Positions 9,645 through 21,213 of a stretch of DNA of 64,000 nucleotides are shown here, piece after piece (the stretch's first letter is position 1; the number at the start of each line of letters is the position of its first letter). Where the stretch lies: contig CACBDG010000001.1 of assembly GCA_902537945.1 (NCBI GenBank), positions 1-64,000 on the forward strand, given 5' to 3'. A model generated the notes under the pieces. The model did no database searches and had not been told where the DNA came from. It saw only the letters and a program-made list of their open reading frames with translations. The DNA comes from an uncultured SAR116 cluster alpha proteobacterium (GTDB lineage: Bacteria > Pseudomonadota > Alphaproteobacteria > Puniceispirillales > Marisalimonadaceae). Made by a program: the position numbers and the translations under genes.

Positions 9645-10532
9645 ATGTCTTTTTCTAATAATAATAAGATCATTTATGGTTCAGCAGGGTTTGGAATGCC
9701 TGCTTATGGTTTTTCTTCTTCAAATAACCCTTCCTCTGGTAATTATTTAAACTACATCTATGATTTAGGTATAAGACACATAGATACTGCATCATCTTAT
9801 GGATTAGCAGAGAAAAAAATTGGTGAATACCACAGAAAAAATAAAAAAAAGTTTAATATATGGACAAAGGTAGATGGTTTATCCAGTAATTCCCACTATA
9901 CTATAGATAAAATTTTTAAAAGTTTAAAATCATCTATTGAAAAAACTAATGTTGACTTTTTTGAGTGTTTATATCTTCACCAAAATAATATTGAGATAAT
10001 AGAAGATAAATTTGTTCAAAAGGGCCTTGAGGCAGTAAAAAACCATGGTTTTGCAAACAATACCGGTGTTTCAATCTATAATGATTCTGAATTAAAATCA
10101 GCCTTATCTATTGATGTCTTTAATGTTGTTCAATTGCCTGTGAGTGTTGTAAATACTCATTTATATAAAATTGCACAAACAAATGCTAAGAAAAAGATTT
10201 TAGTAGCAAGATCTATTTTTCTACAGGGTGTATTATTAAATGTTGAGAGCTTTAACAAAAAATTCAACTACTATGAAGAAATTCACTCTGTTGTTAATGT
10301 TTTAAAAGAATTAGCTTATTCTTATAACATAGATTATTTAGCAATGTTAGTAGCGTATGTAAACTCACTAGATGATTTAGATTACATTATTGTAAGCTCT
10401 AAAAACGCTCAAAATATAAAAAATATTATTCAAAAATCCACCTATAAACTATGCGAAAACGTAAAATCTATTATCAACGAAATTTCTTATAAAGAAAATA
10501 ATTGGACTAATCCACGTAATTGGATAGTTTAA
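9645..10532 (+). CDS. Aldo/keto reductase family protein
   Basis: A 295-residue AKR-fold protein, a NAD(P)H-dependent TIM-barrel oxidoreductase. The tetrad can be picked out: Asp and Tyr in RHIDTASSYG, Lys in IWTKVDG and His in CLYLHQNN. The barrel continues with VVQLPVSVV and ILVARSIFLQG, and the tail YIIVSSKNAQNI matches the cofactor region. It sits between a PtmA-like SDR and a capsule-type transferase in one direction. Such AKRs occur in sugar-modification loci, where they can act as sugar dehydrogenases or be poorly active relatives. The substrate is not identifiable; membership in the family is clear. Confidence 0.82.
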   Translation: MSFSNNNKIIYGSAGFGMPAYGFSSSNNPSSGNYLNYIYDLGIRHIDTASSYGLAEKKIGEYHRKNKKKFNIWTKVDGLSSNSHYTIDKIFKSLKSSIEKTNVDFFECLYLHQNNIEIIEDKFVQKGLEAVKNHGFANNTGVSIYNDSELKSALSIDVFNVVQLPVSVVNTHLYKIAQTNAKKKILVARSIFLQGVLLNVESFNKKFNYYEEIHSVVNVLKELAYSYNIDYLAMLVAYVNSLDDLDYIIVSSKNAQNIKNIIQKSTYKLCENVKSIINEISYKENNWTNPRNWIV

Positions 10533-11931: not shown

Positions 11932-11936
11932 AGGAG
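11932..11936 (+). promoter_or_regulatory. Ribosome binding site AGGAG that decides the start of the fourth SDR
   Basis: AGGAG lies just after the previous stop. The ATG only one base downstream is too close and reads a wrong frame that lacks SDR sequence. The ATT at 11946 is 9 nt away, the same spacing seen before the GT9 TTG and the capsule-transferase ATG, and it opens the correct frame. Confidence 0.55.
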
Positions 11937-11945
11937 AATGTTCAA

Positions 11946-12665
11946 ATTAAAAAAAATATTATTATCACTGGTTCATCAGGCCAAATTGGAAAAGCATTTG
12001 TCAAACACCTTAGTGAGTGCGAGGAAGGTTATTACATTTATGCATTAGACAAGATAAAGAATTTTAATGATCAACAAAATGTTGAAAATATACAAATAGA
12101 CATAACTAAAGAAGATGAGGTAATAGATTTTTTTTCAAAAATTAATAATGTTTATGGATTAATTAATAATGCTGGAATAGGAGTTTTTACACCTTTTCTA
12201 TCTCGAACAGTAAAGGATTTTAAAAATGTACTAGATGTAAATTTGGTTGGTACTTTTCTAATGTCTAGAGAAGCAATTAAGATAATGATTAAAAATAATT
12301 TGGGAAAGATTATTAACATTGGATCAATTTATGGTGTTAATAGCAGCGATTACAGAATTTATGGAAAAAGTGGGAGAAATAATTCAGAAGTTTATAGTAT
12401 AACTAAAAGTGGTATCATTATGTTTTCAAAATACCTCGCAACTCATTTCGCGTCTTATAATATTCAAATCAACACTTTATCCCCTGGTGGTATAAAAAGT
12501 AATCAATCAGATGACTTTGTCAGAAATTATACAAAAAAAAACCCAACAAGAAGAATGGGGTGTACAAAAGATTTATTGCCAGCTCTAGATTTTTTGCTAA
12601 GTAAAAAAAATTTTTATACTAATGGAGAAAATATTATTGTCGATGGTGGTTTTACAAAATGGTAA
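11946..12665 (+). CDS. Short-chain dehydrogenase/reductase with no ATG/GTG/TTG start (ATT start or A8 frameshift)
   Basis: The SDR fold is complete: NIIITGSSGQIGKAF (cofactor loop), QIDITKEDE, GLINNAGIGVF (N-N-A-G), IINIGSIYG (catalytic Ser), YSITKSG, the LSPGGIKSN segment and the NIIVDGG end, about 239 residues. In this frame the first Met is 99 codons in, beyond the cofactor loop, and a TAG lies at 11931, so the start must fall between. The only plausible codon is ATT at 11946, spaced 9 nt from AGGAG. The alternative is the ATG at 11938 followed by a run of eight A: one extra A would join it to the SDR frame, through an assembly error, a mutation or polymerase slippage. It is a paralogue of the third SDR and overlaps the next gene by 7 nt. 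Confidence 0.72.
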   Translation: MKKNIIITGSSGQIGKAFVKHLSECEEGYYIYALDKIKNFNDQQNVENIQIDITKEDEVIDFFSKINNVYGLINNAGIGVFTPFLSRTVKDFKNVLDVNLVGTFLMSREAIKIMIKNNLGKIINIGSIYGVNSSDYRIYGKSGRNNSEVYSITKSGIIMFSKYLATHFASYNIQINTLSPGGIKSNQSDDFVRNYTKKNPTRRMGCTKDLLPALDFLLSKKNFYTNGENIIVDGGFTKW

Positions 12666-13816
12666 GTAAAAAAAATGAGATTGTAAGGCTTAAGAATTGG
12701 CAAAAACTTATAAAAAACCAATTTTCAGAAATTTCAAAAACAGCTAAAAGCAACCAACAGATTTTTTATTCTATAAGTTCAACAAGTTCAAACACAAAGA
12801 TTAGTCCATATACTACCCCAATAAGGTTTTCGGGTAATAGAATTATTGCTGGGAGCGTTGTTGGATCTCAAATTGAAGCTCTTATAGTTGCAGATTATAT
12901 AGAAAATTTAGTAGATTTTCTTCTATTAGACGTTGAAAAAAAAATCCCTATTCAGAATATTCCAGACGAAGAAATTTTTTTAAAATTTAATTTAAAAAAA
13001 TCTTTATATATAGAGAACTCAAAAACTGCTAGTGGAATAGAGTTTGGAAATATTTCTTCTGCAGTAAGAAAAACATTTCCTCTTCAAAAAATCATTAGTT
13101 ACAAACCTAATGATTTAACAGTAGAGTCCATTTGGTTTTTTTTAAGCCACAGGTTTAAAAACTTTGAAAACTTAAAAATTGCTGTCATTGGAACTGGAAA
13201 TATTGGTTTCAAACTTGCTTTAAAACTTGTAGAAAGTGGAGCATATGTAAATATTAATAGAAGAGATAAAGTGTTAGGTTTACAATTAGCTAGTACTATT
13301 AATTCTATAAAACCTAAAAATACTATTGCTAGTGCTGAATTTTATGAAGATCCGGTAAGAGCCTGCACCTTATGTGATGTGGTTATAGGTACTGGGAAGA
13401 CAGATTCTCTCATAATTGACGAAAAAATGGTCTCTGTCATGATGAAGAATGGTGCTTTGATTGATTGTGGTAAAGGTAACATTACTGAATCAGCAATAAA
13501 TTATGCTTATGCATTAGATTTGGAAGTTTATAGAAGTGATGTCTCATCTGGAGTAATTTCTTTTGTTGATCAAGCGACTATAATTAAAAAACTTATTAAT
13601 AATAAAACTGGTAGAAAGCTTTTAACAGATGATATATACATTATATCTGGTGGTATTTATGGAAGATTAGAGGATATTGTTGTTGACAATTTTGATGCAC
13701 CTCAAATTATTTATGGAATGGCGGATGGAAGAGGCCAAATTTTGGAAAAATTAACAAAGTTGCAATGTAAAAAATTAGAATTTGTATCTAATTACTTAAA
13801 AATCAACCAAAATTAA
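12659..13816 (+). CDS. Unassigned NAD(P)-binding Rossmann protein
   Basis: A 385-residue protein whose central part is a classical dinucleotide fold: IAVIGTGNIGFKLALKLVE starting near residue 171, then NINRRD, where the two Arg suggest NADP preference, and CDVVIGTGKTD with GALIDCGKGN. This arrangement resembles shikimate-dehydrogenase or glutamyl-tRNA-reductase-like Rossmann domains. The first 160 residues form a separate domain with no motif I recognise, and the end GGIYGRLEDIVVDN is also unfamiliar. It overlaps the fourth SDR by 7 nt and is followed 14 nt later by the flavoprotein-NeuB fusion, so it very likely belongs to the nonulosonate pathway. Its function is unknown; an oxidation or reduction of a sugar intermediate is a guess. 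Confidence 0.6.
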   Translation: MVSKKNEIVRLKNWQKLIKNQFSEISKTAKSNQQIFYSISSTSSNTKISPYTTPIRFSGNRIIAGSVVGSQIEALIVADYIENLVDFLLLDVEKKIPIQNIPDEEIFLKFNLKKSLYIENSKTASGIEFGNISSAVRKTFPLQKIISYKPNDLTVESIWFFLSHRFKNFENLKIAVIGTGNIGFKLALKLVESGAYVNINRRDKVLGLQLASTINSIKPKNTIASAEFYEDPVRACTLCDVVIGTGKTDSLIIDEKMVSVMMKNGALIDCGKGNITESAINYAYALDLEVYRSDVSSGVISFVDQATIIKKLINNKTGRKLLTDDIYIISGGIYGRLEDIVVDNFDAPQIIYGMADGRGQILEKLTKLQCKKLEFVSNYLKINQN

Positions 13817-13829
13817 TCAAATCGAATAC

Positions 13830-16226
13830 ATGAGCGTCAATAAAAAAGAAAAAATTTTCGTAATAGGAGCTGGACCTACAGGGTTGGTTGCTTCCTGGAA
13901 ATTATCTGAGAACAACAGGGAAGTTCATATATTCGAAGCTTCAAATAGAGTTGGAGGTTTGTGTTCTAGTTGGGAATGGAATGATTTTACTTTAGACATA
14001 GGTCCTCATATATTTCATACACCAGACAAAAATCTTGAAAAATTTTGGAAAAAAGAATTTGGAGACTTGTTAGAGGAAGGTAAATATTATTGTGGTAATA
14101 TTAAAGGAGAAAACTTCGATGAATTTCACTCTTATCCAATTTCTTGGGAACAAATTTCCTTATATCCACAAAAATTAAGAGAAACGATTGTCAAAGAAAT
14201 TACTTCAATTGATAACCTTAAAAAAGCTAAAGCTTCAAATTATAAAGAATACATGGACGCACAAGTTGGTCCAACTTTAAGAAGTATGTTTTATGAAAAA
14301 TATCCAATGAAAATTTGGGGTATTAATCCTAATGATATGACAGCAGATTGGGCTCCTAAAAGAATCCAATTTAGAGAAAAAATATCACCATTTTATATTA
14401 ATGAATGGTCTGCAATATCTAAAAAAGGAACTGGTGCAGTTTATTCTAGAATAGCAGAAAAAATTAATACTTATGGAGGTAAAATTAAATTTAATAAAAA
14501 AGTAATTAATTTCAAAACTTCAGGAAATATCATTACAGAAATAATTTTTTCGGATAATTCTAAACAATTAGTAGAACCTAGTGATATTATTATTTCATCA
14601 ATTCCAATCACAATTTTGGCTAAGTTTTTCAATTATGAATCAAAATTAAGTTTTAGGGGTGTTAGGCTAGGATATTTTTTAATCAATAAGGATAGATTAC
14701 TACCAAATGGTAAAAACTGGCTTTATTATGATTCTGAAAAATTATTGTTTAATAGAATTACTGAACCAAAAACAATGAGCAAATCATTAGGTCAACAAGA
14801 TAAAACAGTAATTGTAACTGAAACTTGTTATAGCAAAAATGACGAAATTGATAACTTAACTGATATTGAATTTTCAAACAGAATTATTTCAGGTTTGAAA
14901 AAAGCTTTTTTGTTATATGAAGAAGATATATTAGATACGATAACCCACAAAGAAGATTACGTCTATCCTGTTCAAACAGCAGGTTATCAAAATGAATTAG
15001 CTAAAACAAGATCAATAATAGGAAAATACGATCAATTGTATTCTCTTGGAACTGGTGGAGACTTTAATTATGCTGATAGTCAAATTCTATTTCATATGGC
15101 TTTTGATATTTCTGACGAAATATTAAATAACAATAAATTTAATTCGAACACAATTAAGCAAATTAAACCTGCATTACAAAATAGTTATGTAAAATTAGGT
15201 AATAGTTTAATTGGTAATGGTGAAGAATGTTACATAATTGCTGAAGCTGGTCTTAACCATAATGGTGATGTAAATGTTGCTAAAGAATTAATAGATCAAG
15301 CAGTATTGTCTGGTTGCTCAGCTATAAAATTTCAATCTTTCGTTAAGGGTAGTAGAGTATCTAAAACTCAAAAATTTGCAAAATATGCTGAAGAAGCTGA
15401 TGGACTCCAAGAAAATATTTATGATTTATTTGAACGTTTATCTTTATCGTTTGAGGACCAGAAAATAATTTTTAATTATGCATCTACAAAAAATATTCCA
15501 ATTTTTTCGACACCATTTGATATTGCAAGCGTTGATTTTTTAGAAGAATTAGGAGTTTTTGCTTATAAAATTGCATCAATGGATTTGGTTAATATTCCAT
15601 TAATTGAATATGTAGCTAAAAGACAGAAACCTATTATTCTATCCACTGGAATGAGTACTTTGTCTAATATAGAAGATGCTGTAAATACTATTTTGAAATC
15701 TGGAAACCCTAATATTATATTACTCCATTGCAATTCATCTTATCCTGCACCGGAAGAAGAAATGAATTTAGCCGCTATTGAAACTTTAAAAAACACATTT
15801 AAAGTCCCAGTAGGTCTTTCGGATCATACATTTGGATTATTTGTGTCTCATACTGCAATATCACTAGGTGCGAATGTTATCGAAAGGCATTTTACACTTT
15901 CTAGATCTATGGTTGGACCTGATCATATATTATCTTCTGAGTTAGATGAAATGTCAAAATTAGTAGATATAGCAAAAAGGGTTCCTAAAATAATAGGTAA
16001 TGGGATAAAACAGGTACAACCAGCAGAGTTAACTACTTTAAATATGCAACAAAAATGCATTTATGCATCTAAAAATCTTAAAAAAGGGGATAAAATTAGA
16101 TTGGATGATATCATTATAAAAGGACCAGGTGGAGGCATACTTCCTAAATTTGTTGATATTATAATAGGTAGAGAAGTTAAAATAGATATTCAAAAAGATA
16201 CAGCTATTAGTTGGGATGATATTTAA
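13830..16226 (+). CDS. Fusion of a UDP-galactopyranose-mutase-like flavoprotein with a NeuB nonulosonate synthase
   Basis: One uninterrupted frame of 798 residues. Residues 1 to about 440 are a FAD protein of the UDP-galactopyranose mutase/amine oxidase fold: VIGAGPTGLVASWKL near residue 10, FEASNRVGGLCSS, LDIGPHIFHT (mutase-like G-x-H-I-F-H-T), KYPMKIWGINP, and a C-terminal LGTGGDFNYADSQ. After a 20-residue linker, about 467-798 is a full NeuB: YIIAEAGLNHNGD, SAIKFQS, IASMDL, STGMST, HCNSSYP, VGLSDHT, VIERHFT, then a C-terminal SAF domain (ASKNLKKGD, IIIKGPGGG). The FAD loop, the NeuB motifs and SAF all look intact. NeuB makes the nine-carbon acid from PEP; the flavoprotein may isomerise or oxidise a precursor. 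The neighbour downstream is neuA copy 2. Confidence 0.85.
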   Translation: MSVNKKEKIFVIGAGPTGLVASWKLSENNREVHIFEASNRVGGLCSSWEWNDFTLDIGPHIFHTPDKNLEKFWKKEFGDLLEEGKYYCGNIKGENFDEFHSYPISWEQISLYPQKLRETIVKEITSIDNLKKAKASNYKEYMDAQVGPTLRSMFYEKYPMKIWGINPNDMTADWAPKRIQFREKISPFYINEWSAISKKGTGAVYSRIAEKINTYGGKIKFNKKVINFKTSGNIITEIIFSDNSKQLVEPSDIIISSIPITILAKFFNYESKLSFRGVRLGYFLINKDRLLPNGKNWLYYDSEKLLFNRITEPKTMSKSLGQQDKTVIVTETCYSKNDEIDNLTDIEFSNRIISGLKKAFLLYEEDILDTITHKEDYVYPVQTAGYQNELAKTRSIIGKYDQLYSLGTGGDFNYADSQILFHMAFDISDEILNNNKFNSNTIKQIKPALQNSYVKLGNSLIGNGEECYIIAEAGLNHNGDVNVAKELIDQAVLSGCSAIKFQSFVKGSRVSKTQKFAKYAEEADGLQENIYDLFERLSLSFEDQKIIFNYASTKNIPIFSTPFDIASVDFLEELGVFAYKIASMDLVNIPLIEYVAKRQKPIILSTGMSTLSNIEDAVNTILKSGNPNIILLHCNSSYPAPEEEMNLAAIETLKNTFKVPVGLSDHTFGLFVSHTAISLGANVIERHFTLSRSMVGPDHILSSELDEMSKLVDIAKRVPKIIGNGIKQVQPAELTTLNMQQKCIYASKNLKKGDKIRLDDIIIKGPGGGILPKFVDIIIGREVKIDIQKDTAISWDDI

Positions 16227-16239
16227 AAATAGGTTTTAA

Positions 16240-16911
16240 ATGACAAATATTATAGCCCTAATACCGGCACGTTTTGGTAGTAAGGGAATAATTAAAAAAA
16301 ATATTATACAATTTAGAGGGAAACCTCTACTTGCTCACAGTATAGACTATGCTAAGAAATCATCACTTATTAGGGATGTTGTAGTATCAACAGATTCTCA
16401 AGAATTTGCATTACTATCTAATAAGTTTGGTGCTAGAACACCATTTCTGAGACCGAAATCTTTAGCTGGAGATAGTACTCAAGATTACCCGGTAGTTCAT
16501 CATGCTGTAAAATTTTTAGAAGAAGAAAAAAACAAAAGGATTGATTATATCGCCTTATTAAGGCCTACCTCACCATTAAGGCCTCCAAATTTAATAGAAA
16601 AGTCTTATGAATTAATTAAAAATAATAAACTAGGAACTTCGGTTAGAAGCGTTGTTCCAGTTAAACAACATAGCTATAGGCAATGGTTTTTAGATGGTGA
16701 CAAAATGGTTTCTGCCCAAAGTAATATTTTTGAATCTTACAATTTACCAAGACAACAATTACCTATTTCATATTTTCAGTCAGGTGACATTGAATTTATA
16801 AGGAGAAGTACTCTCAATAACAAATCAGTGAGTGGAGATTATATTTTACCTTTGATTTTAAAAAACAAAGATTTGTTTGATATAGATACCTATGAGGATT
16901 TAAAAAGTTAA
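16240..16911 (+). CDS. neuA: Acylneuraminate (nonulosonate) cytidylyltransferase, copy 2
   Basis: A 223-residue CMP-nonulosonate synthetase: LIPARFGSKGIIKKN loop at the start, VVVSTDSQEF, LRPKSLAGD, the ALLRPTSPLRPP strand, SVVPVKQHS, and YFQSGDIEFIRR near the end. It differs from copy 1 over most of its length, for example A-R-F-G-S-K against A-R-G-G-S-K, so the two are old paralogues or came separately. It lies 13 nt after the flavoprotein-NeuB fusion, so the NeuB product is its natural substrate. It is the last plus-strand gene of the cluster and is convergent with hldC, whose stop is 15 nt away. No strong terminator is visible between them. Confidence 0.88.
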   Translation: MTNIIALIPARFGSKGIIKKNIIQFRGKPLLAHSIDYAKKSSLIRDVVVSTDSQEFALLSNKFGARTPFLRPKSLAGDSTQDYPVVHHAVKFLEEEKNKRIDYIALLRPTSPLRPPNLIEKSYELIKNNKLGTSVRSVVPVKQHSYRQWFLDGDKMVSAQSNIFESYNLPRQQLPISYFQSGDIEFIRRSTLNNKSVSGDYILPLILKNKDLFDIDTYEDLKS

Positions 16912-20451: not shown

Positions 20452-21213
20452 CTAAGTTTCTCTTTCTTTGGTTGATAAAAGAGAATTAATTATTTTCTTT
20501 CTATTTAGTAGTTTTTTATTTGTGGGTATTAAGTTATTCATCATTCCTCTTTTAACTTTTCCTAATCTAGCCATTACAATTGTTGATATTAAGTTTAAAC
20601 ATATTTTTTGAGCAGTCCCTGCTTTAAGCCTTGTTGAACCTGCCACAATCTCAGCGCCTGTATTTAAAATAATTGAAATTTTTGAAATTTTTTCAAGTTT
20701 TGAGTTTAAATTATTACTTATACCGATTGTTAAAGCACCAATTTTATTTGCATATTTTATAATTTCTGTTGTAAATTTTGTTGATCCACTTGCAGCTAAT
20801 CCAATCACTATATCATTTGGTTTGATTATATTTCCTACTACATTTTTCACTGATGTGTTTTGTAAATCTTCAGCTCCCTCTATTGATTTAGTTAATGCTT
20901 TTTTACCGCCAGCAATTATAAACTTTAATCTTTTAGTTGGCCAACCAAAAGTGGGAACGAGTTCAACACCATCTTGAACAGCTATTCTAGCAGATGTACC
21001 TGCGCCAACATATATAATTTTACTTTTAGGGTTTTTTTCTAACAATTTTGTAATTTTAGAAATAGATATTTCAATAGTATCTAAAGAATTCTCGACAGCA
21101 TGAAAAGCGCTAATGTGGTTATCAAGCATTACTCTTAAAGCCCTTGAGTTACTTAAAGTATCAATGTGCTCATCTGTATTTGGGATTGTTTCTGTCGTTT
21201 CTTTTTTGTTCAT
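20452..21213 (-). CDS. murQ: N-acetylmuramic acid 6-phosphate etherase-like SIS protein, short form
   Basis: MurQ splits the lactyl ether of MurNAc 6-phosphate during cell-wall recycling. The 253-residue protein has YVGAGTSARIA (SIS loop), DGVELVPTFG with the Glu that matches the catalytic Glu of E. coli MurQ, SIEGAEDL with the second conserved Glu, GLAASGSTKFT, NTGAEIVAGSTRLKAGTAQK and GKVKRGMMNNL. It ends soon after NRKKIINSL and so lacks the C-terminal helical part of about 45 residues found in the 298-residue E. coli enzyme. No MurNAc kinase is nearby; instead it lies between a methyltransferase and the WecA-like gene. It may recycle wall sugar or feed the island's sugar supply. Confidence 0.83.
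   Translation of the reverse strand: MNKKETTETIPNTDEHIDTLSNSRALRVMLDNHISAFHAVENSLDTIEISISKITKLLEKNPKSKIIYVGAGTSARIAVQDGVELVPTFGWPTKRLKFIIAGGKKALTKSIEGAEDLQNTSVKNVVGNIIKPNDIVIGLAASGSTKFTTEIIKYANKIGALTIGISNNLNSKLEKISKISIILNTGAEIVAGSTRLKAGTAQKICLNLISTIVMARLGKVKRGMMNNLIPTNKKLLNRKKIINSLLSTKERET

Follow-up and report, generated by a model that had tools for sequence, protein, structure and literature searches.

A UGM-type flavoprotein fused to a complete NeuB in SAR116 and other Pseudomonadota, a candidate bifunctional nonulosonic-acid synthase

The stretch of 64,000 nucleotides analyzed here (the window) contains a single open frame that joins a flavoprotein of the UDP-galactopyranose mutase (UGM) type, at residues ~1-440, to a complete NeuB with its SAF domain, at residues 467-798. 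The best explanation of this gene, in which we place about even confidence from its sequence and surroundings, is a bifunctional nonulosonate synthase whose flavin half supplies the aldose for NeuB. It is well supported that selection has maintained both halves as enzymes and that they act in the same pathway. The parts of the fusion referred to in the text are as follows.

13830..16226, + strand: UGM-NeuB fusion gene, one open frame of 798 aa
13830..15149, + strand: UGM-type flavoprotein half, residues 1-440 (Pfam GLF/Amino_oxidase; profile match to solved UGMs at 1e-30; ligand residues invariant)
14001..14021, + strand: GPHIFHT flavin-site motif, residues 58-64, with P59 and H60 as in Klebsiella UGM
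14361..14363, + strand: R178, equivalent to the diphosphate ligand R174 of Klebsiella UGM (profile alignment; role from PMC3624792)
14754..14756, + strand: R309, equivalent to the diphosphate ligand R280 of Klebsiella UGM (profile alignment; role from PMC3624792)
15069..15077, + strand: Y414-x-D416, equivalent to Y349 and D351 of Klebsiella UGM (profile alignment)
15138..15227, + strand: interdomain linker, about residues 437-466, with constant spacing in 14 homologues
15228..16055, + strand: NeuB barrel, from about residue 467 (Pfam NeuB, 2e-84; catalytic residues kept)
16056..16223, + strand: SAF domain (Pfam SAF), with Gly at position 765 (16122-16124) where Nm NeuB has Arg314

An earlier note had described this frame as a UGM-fold FAD protein followed by a full NeuB with SAF, and the open frame and the Pfam matches confirmed the description. 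NAD_binding_8 (11-74), Amino_oxidase (17-360) and GLF/UGM (154-338, 1.1e-9) were placed on the N-terminal half, and NeuB (487-727, 2e-84) and SAF (743-798, 4.7e-8) on the C-terminal half. The full-length structure model (mean pLDDT 65.5, pTM 0.42) is too weak for inter-site geometry; a Foldseek search with this weak model (pLDDT 65.5) matched both the NeuB and the UGM folds. In the window genome, a draft that is 74.96% complete, there is no other conspicuous copy of either half apart from a SAF-less NeuB at 1031-1861.

Besides the flavin-site motif, the flavin half carries GxGxxG at 13-18 and KIWGINP at 161-167. Its family profile matched Klebsiella UGM at 1e-30 and, at 7e-30, the T. cruzi-type UGM (4dsg), the latter match spanning almost the entire half. 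The GxGxxG motif and the flavin-site pair P59-H60 are invariant in the 14 fusions available. In the profile alignment, P59, H60, Y155 and W160 of Klebsiella UGM correspond to P59, H60, Y158 and W163 of the fusion, and R174, R280, Y349 and D351 to R178, R309, Y414 and D416, all invariant in 14/14, while Y314 (Y379 in the fusion) is kept in 13 of the 14. In the Klebsiella enzyme P59 and H60 are ligands of the flavin, Y155 of the uracil, W160, R174 and R280 of the diphosphate and Y349 of the sugar (PMC3624792, Table 3); the D351 correspondence comes from the alignment only and not from that table. The UGM diphosphate ligand Y185 is replaced by Phe in all 14 fusions and the FAD pyrophosphate ligand R343 is not kept. 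Those UGM diphosphate ligands that are kept favor an NDP-sugar as the ligand, and we consider it probable that the flavin half acts on such a compound.

On the NeuB side, the equivalents of E25, K53, Q55, K129, S132, Y186, H215 and H236 are invariant in the 14 fusions, and the barrel Glu, Lys, Gln and metal-binding His together with SAF are those that define the NeuB superfamily. With the flavin-site pair, the diphosphate arginines R178 and R309 and the NeuB catalytic residues invariant, the previous statement that both halves retain their key motifs was borne out, and both halves are very probably catalytic. Two NeuB positions depart from the Nm enzyme. The equivalent of E134 is Asp in 14/14 fusions, and that of R314 is Gly or Ser in 14/14, whereas 15 of the 16 standalone NeuBs from relatives have Arg there. 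R314 is the only SAF residue within the Nm NeuB site; it bonds ManNAc, positioning its N-acetyl group, and the R314A variant is inactive (PMC6795526). The replacement in every fusion may reflect a substrate unlike the 2-acetamido-hexose ManNAc, although another NeuB mosaic is also without the Arg. The idea that the R314 loss is unique to the fusion was rejected: L014 and the CBS-NeuB-TIM proteins also read SPG there.

Because both halves fall under curated equivalog cut-offs, we did not name them UGM, Neu5Ac synthase or PseI. The flavin half scored 45.6 bits against the UGM model TIGR00031 (cut-off 303.75), and the NeuB half 356.8 bits against the Neu5Ac synthase model TIGR03569 (cut-off 399.65) and 301.8 bits against the PseI model TIGR03586 (cut-off 340.25). 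In a tree of NeuB halves the fusions form one clade, which is separate from PseI, LegI, Nm NeuB and the CBS-NeuB-TIM type, with support of 100/99 against the CBS-TIM group and 86/97 as drawn among all rows. They do not group with the LegI of the legionaminate gene set in genome G092, a name that rests on gene context. A plain Neu5Ac, Pse or Leg synthase is thus unsupported by the cut-offs, the clade and the R314 position.

Thirteen further full-length fusions, at 32-85% identity, were found in other genomes of the SAR116 order, in three other Pseudomonadota lineages and on a myovirus contig. Those at 85, 84 and 80% belong to three SAR116 genomes of the same genus as the window, those at 32-34% to two other families of the SAR116 order (G050, G092, G093), and those at 38-52% to three distant Pseudomonadota lineages (G569, G586, G589, G592, G615, G844); the copy on the IMG/VR contig L044 has 39% identity. 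A fusion fragment lies at a contig end in G639. Among 385 genomes of the class, the window genome was the only one in which the fusion appeared at the threshold used; among 398 genomes of the phylum, 8 had it. The scan outside Pseudomonadota was sensitive to close relatives only. We looked for homologues with an assigned role, and those found carry none. Literature searches for a flavoprotein-NeuB pairing returned nothing relevant and no described enzyme, in agreement with the earlier claim that the pairing is undescribed, since the searchable papers gave no such enzyme.

Separate trees of the N- and C-terminal halves of the 14 fusions have all 11 splits in common. In the NeuB tree the window copy lies closer to the copies from G592 and family f200 than to the copies in the other SAR116 families, an indication of horizontal transfer. 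Plasmids and annotated phages were searched, and no full-length fusion was found in them. Viral scans with the whole protein, each half or the neighboring protein c2 gave nothing; the fusion alignment alone found the viral copy. Its contig, IMGVR_UViG_3300025141_014484 (64.5 kb; L092-L094), is myovirus-like, with baseplate wedge, primase and PhoH genes, so that the fusion is also phage-borne. There the fusion is followed by a cytidylyltransferase, in a glycan cluster with a glycosyltransferase, a methyltransferase and other sugar genes, and the contig appears to hold a phage-borne nonulosonate gene set.

The genes around the fusion in the window include the following.

9645..10532, + strand: aldo/keto reductase, cluster c4 (Pfam), likewise close to the fusion in the f200 lineage
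11934..12665, + strand: SDR-family oxidoreductase (Pfam adh_short)
12659..13816, + strand: c2, a two-domain Rossmann, dehydrogenase-like partner of 385 aa, near the fusion in 9 loci
16240..16911, + strand: PseF-like CMP-nonulosonate transferase (CTP_transf_3; TIGR03584 at 143.5 bits, under the 205.7 cut-off)

The SDR, c2, fusion and PseF-like CMP-transferase genes follow each other on the + strand with overlaps or 13-bp gaps, in an operon-like order. An SDR gene also lies directly upstream of the fusion in G092 and G093, and an aldo/keto reductase is near it in two lineages. The frame of the window SDR (11934-12665) is intact and, unlike its relatives, has no ATG, GTG or TTG near its beginning; a non-standard start codon or a small indel in the A-run at that place would account for this.

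Of 398 genomes, 8 carry gene c2, and precisely these 8 carry the fusion; because these genomes represent four genera, the support for c2 is repetition in four lineages and not eight independent events. A strictly obligate c2 was rejected. The gene is degraded in G092, where its fragments lie in different frames at L033 10686-11650, flanked by RmlB and the SDR, and it was not found in G093 or in the phage record L044, both of which may be incomplete; in G050 an intact c2 lies between RmlB and the fusion. The chains that aligned best with the c2 model (mean pLDDT 65) are Rossmann proteins: dipicolinate synthase A (Z 17.6, rmsd 2.0 over 136 residues), carbamoyltransferases and 2-hydroxyacid dehydrogenases. 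A dehydrogenase role for c2 is therefore a guess.

In G050 and G092, RmlB (TIGR01181, over cut-off) is encoded upstream of the fusion and an RmlA-like protein (under cut-off) directly downstream; an RmlA-like gene is also present in G093. The rmlA and rmlB products, the reductase Fcf1 and the UGM-like mutase Fcf2 make dTDP-fucofuranose (PMC10888714). Because the RmlA/RmlB neighbors in one lineage resemble the Fcf1/Fcf2 clusters, a dTDP-6-deoxyhexose is our best guess, by analogy, for the ligand of the flavin half, for which the earlier note had suggested, for instance, a furanose or keto-sugar donor.

Known nonulosonate routes lead through an NDP-releasing enzyme (NeuC or LegG, which are hydrolyzing 2-epimerases, or PseG) to NeuB and then to CMP transfer. 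The carrier G014, which is 99% complete, has no PF02350 (NeuC/LegG-type) or PseG gene over cut-off. PF02350 genes, one or several, are present elsewhere in other carriers; only in G092 is one beside the fusion, as part of a separate legionaminate-like gene set. NeuB-type enzymes use a sugar already freed of its nucleotide, as LegG supplies it for LegI (PMC6137143). When reduced, UGM expels the NDP, keeps the sugar bound through flavin N5 and ring-opens it to an iminium ion (PMC3624792, PMC3509576).

In a bifunctional nonulosonic-acid synthase, the N-terminal half would bind FAD together with an NDP-sugar. This sugar is probably a dTDP- or UDP-6-deoxyhexose, and the neighboring SDR, aldo/keto reductase and c2 proteins would shape it. 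N5 of the reduced flavin would attack C1 and expel the NDP to give the opened flavin-sugar iminium known from UGM, and hydrolysis of this intermediate would yield an open-chain aldose for NeuB. The aldose might reach the NeuB half by release of the opened sugar in this way, or as an easily opening furanose. The NeuB half would then condense the aldose with PEP to a 3-deoxy-nonulosonate, which the product of the downstream PseF-like gene would activate with CMP. We infer that the flavin half acts on the precursor for NeuB; that NDP release by this half feeds NeuB is a tentative proposal, and its specific form, in which an open-chain aldose is handed to NeuB and NeuC, LegG and PseG are replaced, is rather doubtful. 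In favor of the synthase reading stand the stable fusion with its retained active sites, the conserved neighborhood, and the missing NeuC/LegG-type and PseG genes of the near-complete carrier G014. No UGM-family enzyme is known to us to hydrolyze its sugar nucleotide, and a plain mutase would explain the retained diphosphate ligands equally well. Against the synthase reading as a whole we counted the Y185 to Phe change, the loss of R343, the PF02350 genes of other carriers, the fact that c2 is not universal, and the gene directly 3' of the fusion in the other families of the SAR116 order, which is RmlA-like and not a CMP-transferase.

An ordinary NDP-pyranose/furanose mutase, whose furanose enters the same glycan via a glycosyltransferase and whose fusion to NeuB merely couples expression, would be consistent with the nearly complete set of UGM ligand residues, as well as with the action of the UGM-like Fcf2 on dTDP-fucose in rmlA-rmlB clusters (PMC10888714). 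However, the subfamily never occurs without NeuB in 398 genomes (618-698 bits for the eight fusions, against 222 for the protein that comes next), whereas unlinked building blocks would be expected to separate somewhere, and the N-terminal half is far from the known UGM and PRK07208 equivalogs; we regard this alternative as unlikely. Several oxidoreductase genes adjoin the fusion, and the fold family includes amine oxidases and desaturases, which would suit a redox or other flavin enzyme (oxidase, dehydrogenase, epimerase) acting with c2 on an NDP-sugar, a free hexose or the nonulosonate. The invariance of the UGM-specific ligands Y158, W163, R178, R309, Y414 and D416, and a profile search led by solved UGMs, make such a role improbable. 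The loss of R343 and Y185 is what a non-catalytic scaffold or sugar-nucleotide sensor for NeuB might show, but the FAD and substrate residues are otherwise invariant from 32 to 85% identity, and we give this possibility very little weight. Joining of two adjacent genes by an assembly or frame artefact, for which we found no support apart from the window genome being an incomplete draft, is ruled out together with chance, because the same frame is open across lineages in all 13 further full-length homologues, the conserved D426 and E472 are 45-48 residues apart in all 14 fusions, and no missed stop or frameshift was found near the join (15150-15230).

Many bacteria carry nonulosonates as surface sugars, and gene sets are the usual basis for assigning the routes to them. 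The fusion adds a further NeuB branch that contains a flavoenzyme of its own and is found in marine SAR116, other Pseudomonadota and a phage, and its recurrence with both active sites kept points to an undescribed sugar supply for a sialic-acid-like molecule. Should the flavin half release or remodel the sugar, this would be a new reaction for UGM-type flavin chemistry and would mark a class of nonulosonates now annotated just as "NeuB" or "UDP-galactopyranose mutase". If it releases the NDP, hydrolysis as the final step would be a first for the UGM family, and the nonulosonate route would be new, with a hexose precursor that lacks the usual 2-acetamido group.

Other NeuB mosaics were observed. 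A CBS pair, NeuB, SAF and an AP_endonuc_2 TIM barrel share one frame at L080 1451-3685, L081 1551-3905, L082 1501-3747 and L083 1369-3024, and these genes adjoin GHMP-kinase, NTP-transferase or SIS genes. At 308-2717 of the window, a GmhA-like SIS isomerase and an AP_endonuc_2 TIM barrel flank the SAF-less second NeuB (1031-1861). In the tree this NeuB falls with the CBS-NeuB-TIM type, and the set looks like a split version of that type. A very divergent NeuB-cytidylyltransferase fusion of 586 aa (L050 6539-8299, G592) is one gene away from the UGM-NeuB fusion. At 20452-21213 (- strand) the window also encodes a MurQ-like SIS protein of 253 aa (264 bits to a model of 300 positions), within a surface-polysaccharide region and adjoining heptose-type genes.

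We have filed the fusion, by its sequence, as a putative distinct NeuB subfamily with a built-in UGM-type flavoenzyme. It resembles UGM (Glf; Klebsiella 2bi7/3gf4, T. cruzi-type 4dsg) and the dTDP-fucopyranose mutase Fcf2 in the FAD fold, the flavin-site PH motif, the diphosphate arginines and the sugar-site Tyr and Asp, but has only about 20-25% identity to them, has Phe for Y185, lacks R343, is under the UGM equivalog cut-off and is always joined to NeuB. With NeuB (Neisseria 1xuu), LegI and PseI (Campylobacter 8h2c) it shares the NeuB barrel, SAF and the metal and PEP residues; unlike them, it forms its own clade, bears an N-terminal flavoprotein and has Asp for E134 and Gly or Ser for R314 (14/14). 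The Leptospira interrogans NeuB with a C-terminal phosphatase is a precedent for an adapter enzyme fused to NeuB (PMC3438082). There, too, the enzyme of a step beside NeuB is joined to it, whereas the N-terminal UGM-type partner of our fusion implies other chemistry. The CBS-NeuB-SAF-TIM-barrel proteins of SAR116 kin (L080-L083) are likewise NeuB mosaics of the same order without an R314 equivalent, but they have other partner domains and form a separate NeuB clade.
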